Shown here: piece after piece, positions 2,125 through 11,114 of the stretch
Layout of the letters: every line of letters starts with the position of its first letter
How positions within the stretch are numbered: the stretch's first letter is position 1
From: Parasedimentitalea huanghaiensis
Lineage (GTDB): Bacteria > Pseudomonadota > Alphaproteobacteria > Rhodobacterales > Rhodobacteraceae
Direction of reading: 5' to 3'
Assembly: GCF_009753675.1 (NCBI RefSeq)
Contig: NZ_WQLV01000004.1
Coordinates: 124,001 to 188,000 of the forward strand
Length of the DNA: 64,000 nucleotides
Made by a program: the position numbers and the translations under genes
Notes under the pieces: generated by a model
Databases searched by the model: none
Told to the model about the DNA's origin: nothing
What the model saw: only the letters and a program-made list of their open reading frames with translations

Positions 2125-4677
2125 TCAACCGTTGAGAATACGGGTGATCATCTCGTTGGTATCACGGCTCAGATTTGCGGTTGCCAACATGCGCTCCAGT
2201 TGGCTGCGGATTAGTTCCTGGCGAGTGCTGTCATATCGTTTCCAAGTCTGGAAAGCCGAGCACATCCGGGCCGTGGTTTGTGGGTTCAGCGCGTCCAAGA
2301 TGATCAGGTTGTCGGTTAGCAGCTTATAGCCGGCGCCGCCAGCATAGTGAAAACCGGCCTGGTTCATCGCCAAAGCCCCCATCACCGCGCGGAAGCGGTT
2401 GGGGTTCTTCATGTCGAACAGCGCGTGTTTTGTCAGTTCTGAGGCAACAGATGCGGCTTTCTCTGGCGCGGCACAGGCCACTTGTAGACCGAACCATTTG
2501 TCCATGACCAGACGATCACCTTGCCACTGATCATAGAACGCCTGCGATTGTGTCTCGCCGTTTTCTGCCTTGAGCAGGCAAGCAAGAGCGGCATTTTGTT
2601 GGGTCATGTTATCGGCGGCGTCATACTGGCGGGCAGCAGCCTCTCCACTATCCAGACGCGTCAGCAGGGACAGGATGCGCGCGTTGAGGTCTCGTTTGCC
2701 CGCGCTTTCTGCATCCGGGCTATAGGCGCCTTGTACGGTGGTGTCGGCGTAGAGCCGGGGCAGACTGTCAGTGAGCGCTTCAGCCAATGTTTGGGCAAAG
2801 GTTTCAGCCGCGTCATAGATGGCCTGCGGGTTTGGTGTGTGACCGCGTTCAAACAAGGTTTGGGCAAGATCCGACTGGCTGGGTGGCGATAGAACTAGCG
2901 CGCGGAAGGCTGGGTCCAGACTGTCATCGCGCACCAGCTTGGTCAGCGCATCCAGATAGTCGGCGTCAGGGGCTGCGCCGTCCAGTACCATGGCGACGCG
3001 GGATTCTTTGGCCAGTGTGTTGCCTGCTTCCCAGCGATTAAACGAGTCGCTGTCGTGCGCCAGCAAAAAGGCGCGTTCGGCGTTGGTGCTTTCGCGTTCC
3101 AAAATGACCGGAGCCGAGAATTCGCGCAGGACTGATGGGATCGGTTTGGCAGGCAGGCCTTCGAAAGTGAAACTCTGTTTGGCCTCGGTCAGTTCAAGCA
3201 CCTCTGTTCCGCGCACCTCATCTCCGTTCTGGCCAAGTAGACCAACAGCCACCGGGATCACCCGAGGGTCTTTGTCTGGCTGGCCCGGAGTGGGCGGTGT
3301 CGATTGCTCTAGCGTTAACGTGTAGGTGCCATCAGCGTAATCGTCAGTCACCTTGATACGCGGGGTGCCGGCCTGACTGTACCATTTGCTGAACTGGCCC
3401 AGGTCGCGGCCGGTGGCGTCTTCGAACACCTGCAACCAATCCTCGATGGTGCAGGCCTGACCGTCGTGGCGTTCGAAATACAGGGCTACCGCTTTGGCGT
3501 AGGCGTCATCGCCAACCAGACGTTTCAGCATGCCGATGACCTCGGCACCCTTTTCATAGATAGTTGCGGTGTAGAAGTTGTTGATTTCCTGAAAACTTTC
3601 AGGTCTGACCTGATGTGCCAGCGGGCCGTTATCTTCGGCGAACTGGCGACCGCGTAGATCAATCACGTCCGAGATCCGTTTGACCGAGGCAGAACGCATG
3701 TCAGAGGTGAATTGGCTGTCGCGGTAGACGGTCAGACCCTCCTTTAGGCAGAGCTGGAACCAGTCGCGGCAGGTGATGCGGTTGCCGGTCCAGTTGTGAA
3801 AGTACTCGTGGGCGATAATTGCCTCGATACGTTCGAAATTTGCATCTGTGGAGGTTTCTGGGCTGGCAAGGACGCAGGAAGAGTTGAAAATGTTCAATCC
3901 CTTGTTCTCCATGGCGCCCATATTAAAGTCGTCAACGGCGACGATATTGAAGATATCGAGGTCATATTCCAGACCATAAACATCTTCGTCCCACTTCATC
4001 GACTTGATCAGGGCCTCCATGCCGAACGAGCATTTGTCCTCATCCCCCGGGCGGACCCAGATGTTCAGTTCTACGTCTTTGCCAGACTTGGTAGTAAAGC
4101 GGTCGGGGTGGTTGATCAGATCACCAGCCACCAGCGCAAACAGGTAGGCGGGTTTGGGCCAGGGATCGTGCCATTCAGCCCAGCCGTCGCCGCTGCCTGT
4201 TGGGTTACCATTGGATAGCATGACCTTTTCATCGCCCTCAACCCGAACGGTAAATGTGCTCATCACGTCGGGGCGGTCGGGGTAGAATGTGATCTTGCGG
4301 AAGCCTTCGGCCTCACATTGGGTGCAGTACATGCCGTTCGACATATACAGACCTTCGAGCGCGGTGTTGGTGACCGGGCTGATTTCGACTTCGCTTTCCC
4401 AAACAAATGGCGTGCTGGGTACATCACAGGTCAGCCCCTGTCCGGTGACGTCGGGCGAAACAGGCTGTCCATCGATTTTGGCGGCGATCAGTTTTAACTG
4501 CTCGCCATGCAGAAAAAAGGACCTGTCTACTGCGTCAGGCTTTGGGGTGAATTCAATGCGGCTGACCACGCGGGTCGCCCTAGGAGACAAATGAAAGGTT
4601 AGGTGAACTTCGTCCACCTGAAAACCGAAAGGTGTGTAATCCTTAAGATAGATCGTTTCCGGTGTTGCTTCGGCCAT
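2125..4677 (-). CDS. pepN: Aminopeptidase N (M1 family)
   Basis: 850-residue M1 zinc aminopeptidase that removes N-terminal residues from peptides in the cytoplasm. The exopeptidase motif GAMEN is present (in DFNMGAMENKGLNIFN). The zinc site HEYFHNW is an HExxH motif followed by the third ligand in KEGLT about 18 residues later. Length matches the E. coli PepN type (about 870 residues) with its long helical C-terminal domain. I chose the ATG at 4677 (MAEATPETIYL) because AGGAG sits just upstream; an in-frame start 19 codons earlier has no such site. Assignment to PepN is secure from the motifs and length. Confidence 0.95.
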   Translation of the reverse strand: MAEATPETIYLKDYTPFGFQVDEVHLTFHLSPRATRVVSRIEFTPKPDAVDRSFFLHGEQLKLIAAKIDGQPVSPDVTGQGLTCDVPSTPFVWESEVEISPVTNTALEGLYMSNGMYCTQCEAEGFRKITFYPDRPDVMSTFTVRVEGDEKVMLSNGNPTGSGDGWAEWHDPWPKPAYLFALVAGDLINHPDRFTTKSGKDVELNIWVRPGDEDKCSFGMEALIKSMKWDEDVYGLEYDLDIFNIVAVDDFNMGAMENKGLNIFNSSCVLASPETSTDANFERIEAIIAHEYFHNWTGNRITCRDWFQLCLKEGLTVYRDSQFTSDMRSASVKRISDVIDLRGRQFAEDNGPLAHQVRPESFQEINNFYTATIYEKGAEVIGMLKRLVGDDAYAKAVALYFERHDGQACTIEDWLQVFEDATGRDLGQFSKWYSQAGTPRIKVTDDYADGTYTLTLEQSTPPTPGQPDKDPRVIPVAVGLLGQNGDEVRGTEVLELTEAKQSFTFEGLPAKPIPSVLREFSAPVILERESTNAERAFLLAHDSDSFNRWEAGNTLAKESRVAMVLDGAAPDADYLDALTKLVRDDSLDPAFRALVLSPPSQSDLAQTLFERGHTPNPQAIYDAAETFAQTLAEALTDSLPRLYADTTVQGAYSPDAESAGKRDLNARILSLLTRLDSGEAAARQYDAADNMTQQNAALACLLKAENGETQSQAFYDQWQGDRLVMDKWFGLQVACAAPEKAASVASELTKHALFDMKNPNRFRAVMGALAMNQAGFHYAGGAGYKLLTDNLIILDALNPQTTARMCSAFQTWKRYDSTRQELIRSQLERMLATANLSRDTNEMITRILNG

Positions 4678-4754
4678 GTCGCTCTCCTGTGTCTCGCTTT
4701 GACACAGGTGTAGAGCAAGGTTGCGCAACTGCAAGTGGACTTGGCCTGAGTGGG

Positions 4755-5408
4755 TCAGAAATCAGTGAAAATTCCAATTATGTTTTCGAGTGGAACAAAG
4801 CCAATGCCACCCACTCTTTGAGGCACTCGGCTATCAGTTGCGTTGTCCCTATGGTCTCCTAAGACGAACACATATCCATCTGGTATGTGGTATTCGCCTG
4901 TGAAATCTATGGCTGTACTGCCGAGGTCCAATACCTCATAGGATCGACCATTTGGCAGTGTTTCCGTGTACCTATCTACCGGGCAATGGCCATTTTCGAT
5001 TTTTGAGATGTCTCTACAACGGGGCACAGGGCGTTGCCGTAGATCGAACCACACCGGTTCGTGCTGCTCAGAAGTCACCACCTGCCCATTTAGCCAAAGA
5101 CGGCCTTCGTTCATTTTGACCGTGTCACCGGCGGTAGCCGCGACACGAAAAACAAATTTCTGATCGGAGTTTTGGGAGAGTTTGAAGATTATGACATCGC
5201 CTGCGTCCACAGATTGGGTGGCGGGGTCGAAATACTCGGCCCGTGCGCAGTCCCCTCTGTTCAGGGTGGGGGCCATGGCGTCTGACGAAATAACCCACAT
5301 ATGGTGGTTGCCAAGCAGGCAAACAGGGCAACCACATTGCGGGATGTCTTCTGCCAGCGCAGGGAGGGCGAAAAATGTCAGCAACGCTGTAAGGAGAGAG
5401 AACTTCAA
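4755..5408 (-). CDS. Secreted signal peptidase I-like protein lacking the catalytic dyad
   Basis: About 217 residues with a TTG start at 5408 that gives a clean Sec signal peptide (MKFSLLTALLTFFALPALA, cleavage after Ala19). ATG starts further upstream, for example at 5510, are possible but add an unlikely N-terminus. The rest has the S26 fold markers: SSDAMAPTLNRGD at 41-53, FRVAATAGDTV from 87, and GDHRDNATDSR near 184-194. In active enzymes the residue just before MxPTL is the catalytic Ser and the residue before the Arg of the KR box is the catalytic Lys. Here these are Ala44 and Phe87. The mature part carries six Cys, three of them in CGCPVC right after the cleavage site. It is probably a periplasmic non-peptidase. 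It is divergent from glcB. Confidence 0.75.
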   Translation of the reverse strand: MKFSLLTALLTFFALPALAEDIPQCGCPVCLLGNHHMWVISSDAMAPTLNRGDCARAEYFDPATQSVDAGDVIIFKLSQNSDQKFVFRVAATAGDTVKMNEGRLWLNGQVVTSEQHEPVWFDLRQRPVPRCRDISKIENGHCPVDRYTETLPNGRSYEVLDLGSTAIDFTGEYHIPDGYVFVLGDHRDNATDSRVPQRVGGIGFVPLENIIGIFTDF

Positions 5409-5592
5409 ATCTAAAAATCCACCCAAAATGGGAAAAAAGCAATGAGAGAAAGCAATTGTCTGGAGTATTGTTCGGGAGTTTCTTGAAAAGCAAGAGGCTG
5501 ACTTCGGCATTCGCGATAAGTAGGCTTGTTGCTGACAGGAAACGAATGTTTTACTTACCCGTAGCATACTATTGTGTACCGCTGGAGGGAAA

Positions 5593-7728
5593 ATGACAAT
5601 TCGGGTTGAAAAGCATGGGCTGCAAGTGGCAGCTGAATACGCGGATTTCATTGAAAAATCGGCTCTTCCGGGGACGGGTGTGCAGGTGGATGCCTTTTGG
5701 CAAGGTCTCAGTCAGCTGGTGCATGACTTTGGCCCAGAGAACCGGTCCCTTTTGGCCAAAAGGGAAGAGATCCAAGGCCAGATTGATGCTTGGCACATTC
5801 AACACCGCGAGACGCCACATAATGCAGAGGCCTACTCAGCGTTTTTGCGGGACATTGGCTATTTGCTGCCCGAAGGCGATGATTTTGAGATTGAAACAGA
5901 GAACGTAGATCCGGAAATTGCACATGTGCCCGGACCACAGCTGGTGGTGCCAATCACCAATGCGCGTTTTGCGCTGAACGCAGCAAATGCCCGTTGGGGG
6001 TCGCTGTATGACGCATTGTACGGCACCGATGCCATGGGAGACCTGCCCGTGGGCAAAGGCTATGACAGTGCGCGTGGCGCGCGCGTTATTGCCTGGGGGC
6101 GCGATATGCTGGATAGGGTCTTTCCGCTGGTGGCCGGATCCTGGAGTGACATTATGGAAGTGTCGATGCAAGGAGGGGCTTTGTCACCTGAATTGTCCAA
6201 TTCTGCCCAGTTTGCAGGCTACGTTGGCAAAGCAGAAGCTCCGTCTCGGGTGCTGCTAAAGAACAATGGGTTGCATGTTATTCTCGAGATTGATGCCACA
6301 GGGACTATTGGAGCGGCCGATCAGGCAAGCATCAATGACATAACGTTGGAATCGGCCCTGTCGACAATCATGGATTGTGAAGACAGCGTAGCCGCCGTTG
6401 ATGCCGAGGACAAAGTATTGGCCTATGGCAACTGGCTGGGCCTGATGAAGCGTGACCTGTCGGTTGAGGTACACAAGGGGAGCAGCAGCTTTACCCGCAG
6501 CCTGAACCCCGACCTTGACTATACCAAAGTGGCGGGCGCGCAGGCTTCGCTGAAGGGGCGTTCCTTGTTGCTGGTGCGCAATGTTGGGCATTTGATGACC
6601 AACCCTGCTGTTCTGGACCGCGACGGGGTTGAGGCTGGCGAAGGCCTGATGGATGCAATTACCACAGTGATGATTGCCATGCATGATCTGCAGGCAGAAG
6701 GTGGCAACTCGCAACATGGCTCGGTCTATGTGGTTAAGCCCAAGATGCACGGTCCTGAAGAAGTGGATTTTGCCTGCCGGATTTTCGACCATGTGGAACA
6801 GGCGCTCGGCCTGCCGCGAAACACTGTCAAAATTGGCATCATGGACGAAGAGCGCCGCACCAGTGCCAACCTTAAGGCCTGTATTCGGGCGGCACGCTAT
6901 CGGGTAGCCTTTATCAACACAGGTTTTCTGGATCGCACTGGGGACGAGATTTATACGGCAATGGAAGCCGGGCCCATGGTGCCCAAGGGTGAGATGAAAT
7001 CAACGCCCTGGATTTCGGCCTATGAAGACCGCAATGTGGATATCGGGCTGGCTTGCGGGCTGAAAGGGCGCGCTCAGATTGGCAAAGGCATGTGGGCGAT
7101 GCCGGATCTGATGCAGGCAATGCTGGAGGCCAAAGCTGGGCACCCGCAGGCTGGCGCTACATGTGCCTGGGTGCCATCGCCGACTGCTGCAACACTACAT
7201 GTCACACATTACCACGAAATCAATGTTCATGAGGTTCAGGATCATCTGAAGGCGGGGGGGAGCCGTGGAACCCTGCAGGATCTCCTGACGATACCAGTCA
7301 TGACCGGTAAGACCCTTTCCGATGATGCCATCACCCGTGAGATCGAAAACAACGCGCAGGGTATCCTGGGGTATGTGGTGCGCTGGGTGGATCAAGGCGT
7401 TGGGTGTTCAAAGGTGCCGGACATTAACAATGTTGGTCTGATGGAAGATCGCGCCACCTGTCGGATCTCCAGTCAGGCACTGGCCAATTGGCTGCATCAC
7501 GGTGTGGTGGATGAGGCGCAGGTTCACGCGGCAATGCAAAAAATGGCTGCGGTTGTGGACGCACAGAATGCAGCTGACCCAGACTATCGCCCTATGGCGC
7601 CGGAGTTTGACGGTCTTGCCTATCAGGCGGCCTGTGATCTGGTGTTCAAAGGGCGGGTCCAGCCGTCAGGATACACCGAACCCGTGTTACATGCGCGACG
7701 CTTGCAACTGAAATCTGCGGCGGGCTGA
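5593..7728 (+). CDS. glcB: Malate synthase G
   Basis: 711-residue malate synthase of the G type, condensing glyoxylate with acetyl-CoA to malate in the glyoxylate route. Length fits the monomeric G form (about 720 residues) and not the A form (about 530). Recognisable blocks are [19 protein letters not shown], the [17 protein letters not shown] segment with active-site residues, [11 protein letters not shown], and the C-terminal [19 protein letters not shown] region. The ATG at 5593 (MTIRVEKHG) follows a strong GGAGGG, so it is preferred over the upstream in-frame GTG. Transcribed alone. A hairpin plus dispersed element follows its stop. Confidence 0.96.
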
Positions 7729-8909: not shown

Positions 8910-11114
8910 TTAGGGCTGCGCGCTACCTGAGATCGCAACGATTGCTTTTTGCGCCTTTCGGCCCACAATAGGTACTTCTTTCAGCGCGGCTAATGCTGGC
9001 AGTGCGCTTGCGGCGGCAGGGCCAATTTTGCCTAGCGAAACCGCAGCTTGGCCCTGGACAGCTTTGCTTTCGTCAGACAAGGCGGTGATCAACAGCGGAA
9101 CAGTGTCTGCCGCGTCGAGGCCAGGAAGCCCCAATATCAACGCCGCACCTCGACGTTTAGACGTATCTCCTGTTTGCAGGCGGCCTAGTAAATATTCGAT
9201 CGGCTTATCCGGAGGAAGCGCCGCGAGGTGAAGACCATCGATAACACTGGCGACCATTTCGGGCCTTTGCTCCCATTCAAACGGGAAATGATAAATATAG
9301 GCGATTGCCCCCAGCGCGGCTTGGTCGGCTTCAGGGGCCGCCAATTTCAGAGCGGCATGAGCCTCGTCGAAGCGCTGCAGGCGGGCATAGGTTGCTGCGG
9401 CGATGATCGCTAGCGCCTCGGCCTTGGGGTCACGCTCCAGTGCTGCCTCCAGAACCATTGCGGTTTGTTCGAGATCTCCCATAGAATAGTGGGCCATCGC
9501 TTGGGCGAAAACATAATAGCTGGGATAGGTTGGGTTCAGCCGCATGGCCCGGTCGATCAATTCCAACCCAAGCTCTGGCTGACCGGTGGTGACCATAGAC
9601 CAGGCCATCGCGATATAGGCTTCGGGGTCGTTGGGATCCTGTGTGATCGCGCGGGTCGCATCGATTTTGGCGATCTCATAGCGGTTGTTGTATAGATTAA
9701 CCCCGGATGCAGCCACATTAGCCAGGGAAGAGGGGCGTTCCGTGGTCTCGGCGAGTGACCGTATAGCATAGGCATTGGCTTCGCCTGCACTGAGGCCCAG
9801 CGGTTTATTCCACCGCAGCTGGCAGCCGCGCAAGTAGGCCAAGCTAAGAGCAGCATGGGCGCGACCATAGTCAGGGTCGATTTCAAGAGCTTTTTTGAAC
9901 TGATCAACCGCGCTAGCGTTGTCTTCGGCTGAGTATTCAAGAAAACTCTCCCAACCGGTTTGAAAAACCTCGCGGGCCTCAATATCGGAGGTCTGGCCGA
10001 GTGCGATTTCTTGTTCTTCCTCCATAGTCAGATTGATCGCCAGCGCCTTGGCAATTTTTCGGATGAAGGCGTCTTGGACCTTGAATATATCGGTAACATC
10101 GCCATCGTAACGTTCGGCCCAGATATGACCGCCGGTGGCGGCATCTATCAACTGGGCGTTCACACGCACCTGATCACCCGAACGCCGGGCACTGCCTTCG
10201 AGTACGTATTGTACTCCCAGTTCCTCGGCTACGAGGGGAATGTTCACCGATTGGCCTTTGTAGACGAATGTGGAATTGCGCGCGACGACGAACAGGCCAG
10301 AGATCCGCGACAGATCCGTGATCAGGTCTTCGGTCAGGCCATCGGCAAAGCCCTCTTGGTTGGGATCGTTGGATAAGTTTGCAAAGGGTAGAACCGCCAG
10401 TGAAGGTTTGTCTGGCAAGGGGAGAGCTGTGCGTTCAATTTCGGTAGGCGCTGGGCCGGGGACAGAAATCTGCCACCATCCAGACCCACCAAGAATGAAC
10501 AATCCGGCTACCAGACCAGCGGCAGTTCGCCAACGAATGGATGCCTTTGGTGCCTGTGTTTGGTGTTCGGCTGGAAGAGCTGCAACAACAGCAGCTAAAT
10601 GGTTGAACTCAACGCTGGATGCGCGGACTGGTTTTTCGATGTTCTTCACGTCCACTTCGCCTAGGTCGTGGAAGTCGAGGTGGAGCTTACCACGGATCTG
10701 TTCTCGGACAGATTGGTGCACGCAGATGCCACCGGGATCAGCTAGGGCCTCCAGCCTAGCGGCGATGTTTACGCCATCTCCGTACAGATCGTCGCCATCA
10801 GCAATTACATCGCCAATGTTTATTCCGATACGATAACTCAGTCGCTGACCCTCAACTTGATGAGGGTTGGCCAAGCCGATGGCATGCTGCATACAGATGG
10901 CAAAGTGCACCGCGTCAACTGCGCTGGTGAACTCCATAAAACCACCATCCCCCATGACCTTAATCATGCGCCCTTGGTGGTAATCGGCGAGCGGCTGGAT
11001 GATTTGTGAATAGGTTTGTTTGAGGGCGGTGAGCGTTGCTGTTTCATCCTGCCCCATTGCCCGGCTGTAACCGACAACATCGTAAAACAGGATAGCCGCG
11101 AGCCGACGATTCAT
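8910..11114 (-). CDS. Membrane-spanning class III cyclase with TolB-like, TPR and HEAT-like domains
   Basis: 734 residues. Residues 1-170 form a class III nucleotide cyclase domain. It has both metal Asp motifs (FYDVVGYSRAMGQDE and MGDGGFMEF), a Lys just before MGDG, and VNIAARLE with the transition-state Asn and Arg, so activity is plausible and adenylate more likely than guanylate. One transmembrane helix near 190-212 follows. Then comes a TolB/FlgO-like domain (SLAVLPFANLSNDPNQEGFA, ARNSTFVYKGQ), several TPR units, and a HEAT-like C-terminus (LLITALSDESKAVQGQAAV). The cyclase would face the cytoplasm and the rest the periplasm. ATG at 11114 has GGGAGAGG upstream. Its ligand is unknown. Confidence 0.85.
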   Translation of the reverse strand: MNRRLAAILFYDVVGYSRAMGQDETATLTALKQTYSQIIQPLADYHQGRMIKVMGDGGFMEFTSAVDAVHFAICMQHAIGLANPHQVEGQRLSYRIGINIGDVIADGDDLYGDGVNIAARLEALADPGGICVHQSVREQIRGKLHLDFHDLGEVDVKNIEKPVRASSVEFNHLAAVVAALPAEHQTQAPKASIRWRTAAGLVAGLFILGGSGWWQISVPGPAPTEIERTALPLPDKPSLAVLPFANLSNDPNQEGFADGLTEDLITDLSRISGLFVVARNSTFVYKGQSVNIPLVAEELGVQYVLEGSARRSGDQVRVNAQLIDAATGGHIWAERYDGDVTDIFKVQDAFIRKIAKALAINLTMEEEQEIALGQTSDIEAREVFQTGWESFLEYSAEDNASAVDQFKKALEIDPDYGRAHAALSLAYLRGCQLRWNKPLGLSAGEANAYAIRSLAETTERPSSLANVAASGVNLYNNRYEIAKIDATRAITQDPNDPEAYIAMAWSMVTTGQPELGLELIDRAMRLNPTYPSYYVFAQAMAHYSMGDLEQTAMVLEAALERDPKAEALAIIAAATYARLQRFDEAHAALKLAAPEADQAALGAIAYIYHFPFEWEQRPEMVASVIDGLHLAALPPDKPIEYLLGRLQTGDTSKRRGAALILGLPGLDAADTVPLLITALSDESKAVQGQAAVSLGKIGPAAASALPALAALKEVPIVGRKAQKAIVAISGSAQP

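Follow-up and report, generated by a model that had tools for sequence, protein, structure and literature searches.

The locus considered here raises the question of whether a gene that retains the fold of signal peptidase I and has lost its catalytic residues is a sequencing error, a decaying duplicate, an unusual hydrolase, or a gene kept for a function other than cleavage. It lies in a window (the whole stretch of DNA that was analysed, 64,000 nucleotides) from Parasedimentitalea huanghaiensis, contig NZ_WQLV01000004.1, in the following setting:

2125..4677, minus strand: pepN (aminopeptidase N, by Pfam), 77 bp downstream of the S26 gene and on the same strand
4755..5408, minus strand: gene for the predicted secreted S26-fold pseudo-signal-peptidase, 217 aa, TTG start
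5419..5424, minus strand: GGGTGG, resembling a ribosome-binding site, about 10 nt 5' of the TTG (from the sequence; AGGTGG at the same place in Zongyanglinia marina)
5593..7728, plus strand: glcB (malate synthase G, by Pfam), the divergent upstream neighbour

The product belongs to the Peptidase_S26 family, with matches across the catalytic region to PF10502 (94.4 bits against a gathering cut-off of 22.9) and to TIGR02227, the NCBIfam equivalog model of signal peptidase I (96.9 bits against a curated cut-off of 47). The AlphaFold2 model of the mature domain has a pLDDT of 94.1 and a pTM of 0.90, and its top PDB matches in a Foldseek search are to E. coli LepB (TM up to 0.71), followed by SpsB and SipA; the claim of an intact S26 fold, made in a preliminary description of this DNA, is thus borne out by profiles and model alike. 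The register of the active site was read from an alignment with the LepB of the same genome and related LepBs, 23 in all, among which Lys145 and Ser278 are present in 23 of 23 and Ser90 in all 22 that are readable there. The corresponding positions in the window protein are:

5277..5279, minus strand: Ala44 (GCC) at the nucleophile position, Ser90 of E. coli LepB (sequence and alignment)
5148..5150, minus strand: Phe87 (TTT) at the general-base position, LepB Lys145 (sequence and alignment)
4827..4859, minus strand: box E, GDHRDNATDSR, intact except for Ala190 at the position of LepB Ser278 (alignment)

The alignment agrees with the earlier reading of Ala44 and Phe87 as replacements of Ser90 and Lys145, and adds a third change that had not been described, Ala190 (4839-4841) in place of Ser278, the residue that stabilises the Lys. 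Phe87 adjoins Arg88, the counterpart of the invariant Arg146 of LepB, and Ser42, which corresponds to LepB Ser88, is kept. Because the register is set by the invariant Met45 and Arg88, no other alignment gives the protein a dyad, and a realignment restoring Ser and Lys was rejected on this ground. The protein thus has neither the Ser nucleophile nor the Lys base of an active type I signal peptidase (S26A); because three active-site positions are replaced, we strongly infer that it has no S26 peptidase activity, as expected of the pseudoenzyme first proposed. The genome encodes one other S26 protein, a normal LepB (with the motifs IPSGSM and FIKR) on a different contig.

Sequencing error or decay in a single strain was rejected, as the same residues occur in a second species: the orthologue of Z. 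marina (G201) is 82% identical and carries the same Ala/Phe/Ala triple. The dN/dS ratio between these two genes is 0.20 (bootstrap 0.14-0.30), and that between the genes of another dyad-null lineage (G824 and G879) is 0.22 (0.12-0.37). The comparison values are 0.056 for pepN and 0.021 for lepB. The S26 gene, with a ratio 4-10 times these values, is accordingly under moderate purifying selection, looser than that on its neighbours. In the copy from G216 (L076:8107-8742), a TAG codon lies inside the signal peptide, and that copy is either a pseudogene or affected by an error.

No S26 gene separates glcB from pepN in six congeners of the window genome or in two species of a second genus, where the two genes adjoin each other. 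The intergenic sequences of the congeners keep both the box on the glcB side and the leader on the pepN side, so that the S26 gene reads as an insert between the two. It is present in 2 of the 8 genomes of the window's genus, and may have been either gained at this site or lost from the others. The homologues sharing Ala and Phe at the two dyad positions, for which the preliminary description had proposed a search, are those of Z. marina and of a genome from the second genus (G349); both occupy the glcB-pepN site, so that position and sequence alike mark the three genes as orthologues. The glcB-S26 intergenic region (5409-5592, minus strand) contains a GTTTCCTATCAGCAACA-like box common to the congeners and differs from that of Z. 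marina at about 4 of 190 bases, unlike the S26 and pepN genes, for which the synonymous divergence is about 0.54. In the pepN leader, a very stable hairpin (4675-4719, minus strand; -21.1 kcal/mol, z -5.05) covers the Shine-Dalgarno sequence of pepN, and congeners that lack the S26 gene have a weaker form of it; an Rfam search of 2.5 kb around the S26 gene of the window gave no match. Elsewhere in the window (8910-11114, minus strand), an adenylate/guanylate cyclase domain is joined to TPR and HEAT repeats in one protein.

Profile searches of 397 genomes of the family, 240 class-wide and 393 order-wide (the sets overlap), combined with reading of the loci, identified a short secreted S26 protein in at least 13 genomes from at least 10 genera of one family. 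With the residues given in the order nucleophile, base and Ser278 position, the members are: the window protein and G201 (Z. marina) A/F/A, G349 A/F/S, G003 H/S/S, G214 S/D/S, G373 and G251 S/K/S, G226 and G216 S/F/A, G342 and G645 G/F/A, and G824 and G879 A/G/A. Among these listed matches, the dyad is intact in two, has lost the Lys alone in three, and has lost both residues in eight. Every member retains Arg88, Met45 and most of box E. Ala takes the Ser278 position in five of the six distinct rows that bear Phe (the rows are not all independent), and this pairing of Phe and Ala looks like a hydrophobic repacking of the old base pocket. The suggestion in the preliminary description that the window protein is a pseudoenzyme is supported; the protein is not an isolated oddity, being one member of a secreted clade whose dyads run from intact Ser/Lys to complete replacement. 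Homologues with intact dyads, which had been named as grounds for regarding the gene as an error or as decay in one strain, do exist (G373 and G251), and they do not make it either.

The gene contexts of the members, whose comparison had also been proposed, include the glcB-pepN site in three genomes, a hisG-like locus in two (G216 and G251), and, in G342, G645, G824 and G879, a position between genes for a putative ligase-associated exonuclease and an ATP-dependent DNA ligase; the remaining members lie in unique places. Here, the ligase, glcB and pepN were named by Pfam, and hisG and the exonuclease by eye from the sequence. A common operon partner was rejected, since three locus types recur and the rest are unique; no gene context is common to all secreted members whose loci are listed, and no partner or ligand gene was identified from these contexts. 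In two genera (L118:3216-6456 and L119:3394-6664), the S26 gene overlaps the exonuclease and ligase genes by 4 bp at each end, an odd place for a periplasmic protein.

In a tree built with the three catalytic columns masked, from 12 secreted rows, 23 LepBs and longer LepB paralogues, the secreted proteins form one clade (100/99) and the LepBs another (100/98), and the longer paralogues are weakly held together (67/84); several branches are long. The secreted Cys-stapled S26 clade, as we define it in the present analysis (signal peptide, Cys25, Cys54 and membership of the one clade), includes the window protein. In the best tree, the two Ser/Lys members, G373 and G251, are placed apart; if loss of the dyad is irreversible, it must on this topology have happened at least twice. 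Repeated loss is favoured by this topology and by the varied replacements, with a single loss not rejected (AU p 0.133 for all dyad-null members held as one clade, in the presence of long branches). As two members keep Ser and Lys, the ancestral role of the clade may have been proteolysis. The class-wide search, run at E 1e-35, a threshold that weaker members could escape, gave only LepB-like matches outside the family, starting after residue 35. Plasmid-borne relatives were considered and rejected: of 32 records, the best 15 show less than 60% identity, in most cases over the LepB-like part only, and the one such locus inspected is annotated as an ordinary lepB. In the longer paralogues (L036, L037, L012, L069, L101, L007 and others), the N-terminal membrane part is extended and by eye resembles DUF805, and the gene often forms a tandem pair with lepB; the catalytic Lys is gone from 5 of 18, and from one of these the Ser as well.

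The N-terminal part of the window protein and its cysteines are as follows:

5352..5408, minus strand: predicted signal peptide, residues 1-19, with an AxA-type site, ALA|ED (from the sequence; an AxA-type site is likewise placed in nearly all family members)
5319..5336, minus strand: Cys25-x-Cys27-x-x-Cys30 cluster (CGCPVC) at the mature N-terminus; Cys25 invariant, Cys27 and Cys30 jointly lost in G342/G645
5247..5249, minus strand: Cys54 at the position of LepB Phe100; invariant in the secreted family, absent from the LepBs and paralogues examined
4983..5018, minus strand: Cys131 and Cys142, the conserved Cys pair of the LepB large domain (alignment)

All secreted members have a predicted signal peptide, and in nearly all of them the AxA-type site closely precedes the first Cys, in keeping with the cleavable signal peptide described earlier. 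The membrane anchor that precedes the catalytic domain in S26A enzymes is missing, as the sole N-terminal hydrophobic stretch of the window protein ends in this predicted site; accordingly, the domain is predicted, as before, to be free in the periplasm. A lipoprotein anchor was rejected, with no lipobox seen by eye 5' of the first Cys. The CGCPVC cluster noted earlier is real, and CxCxxC occurs in 11 of the 13 genomes among the matches listed. In the G342/G645 lineage, Cys27 and Cys30 are gone together and Cys25 and Cys54, the latter missing from the preliminary description, are kept, a pattern that two disulphides fit better than a four-Cys metal site would. On the simplest reading, Cys25-Cys54 and Cys27-Cys30 disulphides would hold the N-terminus that membrane helices hold in LepB.

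The substrate cleft is better preserved than the catalytic centre. Across 12 aligned secreted members, Ser90 is kept in 5, Lys145 in 2 and Ser278 in 5; at the positions that we take to form the cleft floor in the LepB structure, Phe84 is Phe or Trp in 10 of 12, Met91 is present in all 12, and Leu95 and Ile144 are hydrophobic in all 12. This difference fits the binding of a peptide or protein, as has been proposed for SipA, although the hydrophobic residues may be kept for folding alone. On this basis, the window protein is, with moderate probability, a pseudo-signal-peptidase, soluble in the periplasm, to which a peptide or protein partner binds without being cut. It would be made with its signal peptide and exported, the normal LepB of the cell would cut it at ALA|ED, and the mature protein would fold as a LepB beta-domain with the N-terminus probably stapled by the Cys25-Cys54 disulphide rather than by membrane helices; the retained hydrophobic floor of the old substrate cleft could then accommodate a periplasmic partner, either an extended peptide or a protein, and leave it uncut.

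A rather unlikely alternative is a paralogue under relaxed constraint, in which duplication made catalysis dispensable, the catalytic residues were free to drift and the gene is now on its way to loss. The patchy presence with the site empty in six congeners, the stop codon in G216, the long branches and the dN/dS above that of the neighbours speak for such drift; however, dN/dS is well below 1 in two dyad-null lineages, at least 10 genera retain the signal peptide, Cys25, Cys54, Arg88 and the greater part of box E, and Ala and Phe are conserved in two genera at one locus. On another reading, the S26 domain would be a scaffold for the Cys-rich N-terminus, which would do the work of the protein as a redox CxxC or a metal site. 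The prevalence of CxCxxC and the invariance of Cys54 are compatible with this unlikely reading, but the lineage without Cys27 and Cys30 keeps the gene along with Cys25 and Cys54, which suggests paired structural disulphides, and no redox or metal partner gene is seen near the S26 loci.

That the protein acts on the LepB of its own cell, as a decoy or as a regulator of LepB or of signal-peptide turnover, appears quite improbable: it descends from the same domain family, keeps most cleft residues and shares its genome with a LepB of the active type, yet the gene is not co-located with lepB, and the mature protein lacks a membrane helix that would bring it to the site where LepB works. Least of all would we expect a hydrolase using other residues. 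Box E and Ser42 are kept and two family members have an intact Ser/Lys, but all three active-site positions are replaced, with Phe filling that of the base, and the replacements vary by member, which argues against one new catalytic set.

Compared to known systems, a non-cutting periplasmic binder would have its closest parallel in SipA of Streptococcus pyogenes, in which the nucleophile, base and Ser278 position are likewise replaced (Asp48, Gly85 and Arg145) and the cleft is retained (PMC4049620; PDB 4n31); SipA, matched by both Foldseek and profile, is Gram-positive, encoded in a pilus cluster and essential for pilus polymerisation, with cleft binding proposed (PMC4049620). Both proteins are S26 folds without Ser/Lys. 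Unlike SipA, the window protein combines a predicted cleavable signal peptide with a Cys cluster and has other replacements, and no pilus or sortase genes were seen beside the S26 gene, whose neighbours include glcB and pepN. Staphylococcus aureus SpsA, a dispensable homologue of signal peptidase I lacking two conserved catalytic residues, exists alongside the active SpsB (PMC12445088); it is Gram-positive, whereas the window protein is secreted, Cys-rich and part of a clade of varied dyad states. With E. coli LepB and the LepB of its own genome, the window protein shares the fold, box E, Arg146, Met91, the cleft hydrophobics and the domain Cys pair, and it differs from them in lacking Ser90, Lys145, Ser278 and the membrane anchor and in possessing Cys25, Cys27, Cys30 and Cys54. 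The longer paralogues (for example, L036, L037 and L012) are also LepB paralogues, some without the Lys; in contrast to the window protein, most have the longer membrane part, and they lack CxCxxC and Cys54 and fall outside the secreted clade.

Dyad-null homologues of signal peptidase I are thus known already in SipA and SpsA; in the open literature searched, they are described from Gram-positives only, with none from Gram-negatives, and what is new here is a secreted, Cys-stapled clade with graded loss of the dyad. Tentatively, this clade could be a family of Gram-negative proteins with a soluble signal-peptidase fold, stapled by disulphides, that repeated loss of the dyad has turned into periplasmic binders of extended peptides, whether signal peptides or others. 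The finding also carries a warning for annotation: TIGR02227 matches 9 of the 9 members of the clade that were scanned, and because this standard curated model scores them as signal peptidase I, a label that does not follow where the dyad is missing, automatic naming would misassign their function. The range of dyads within the clade, from intact to fully replaced, would provide a natural series for how a protease becomes a binder.
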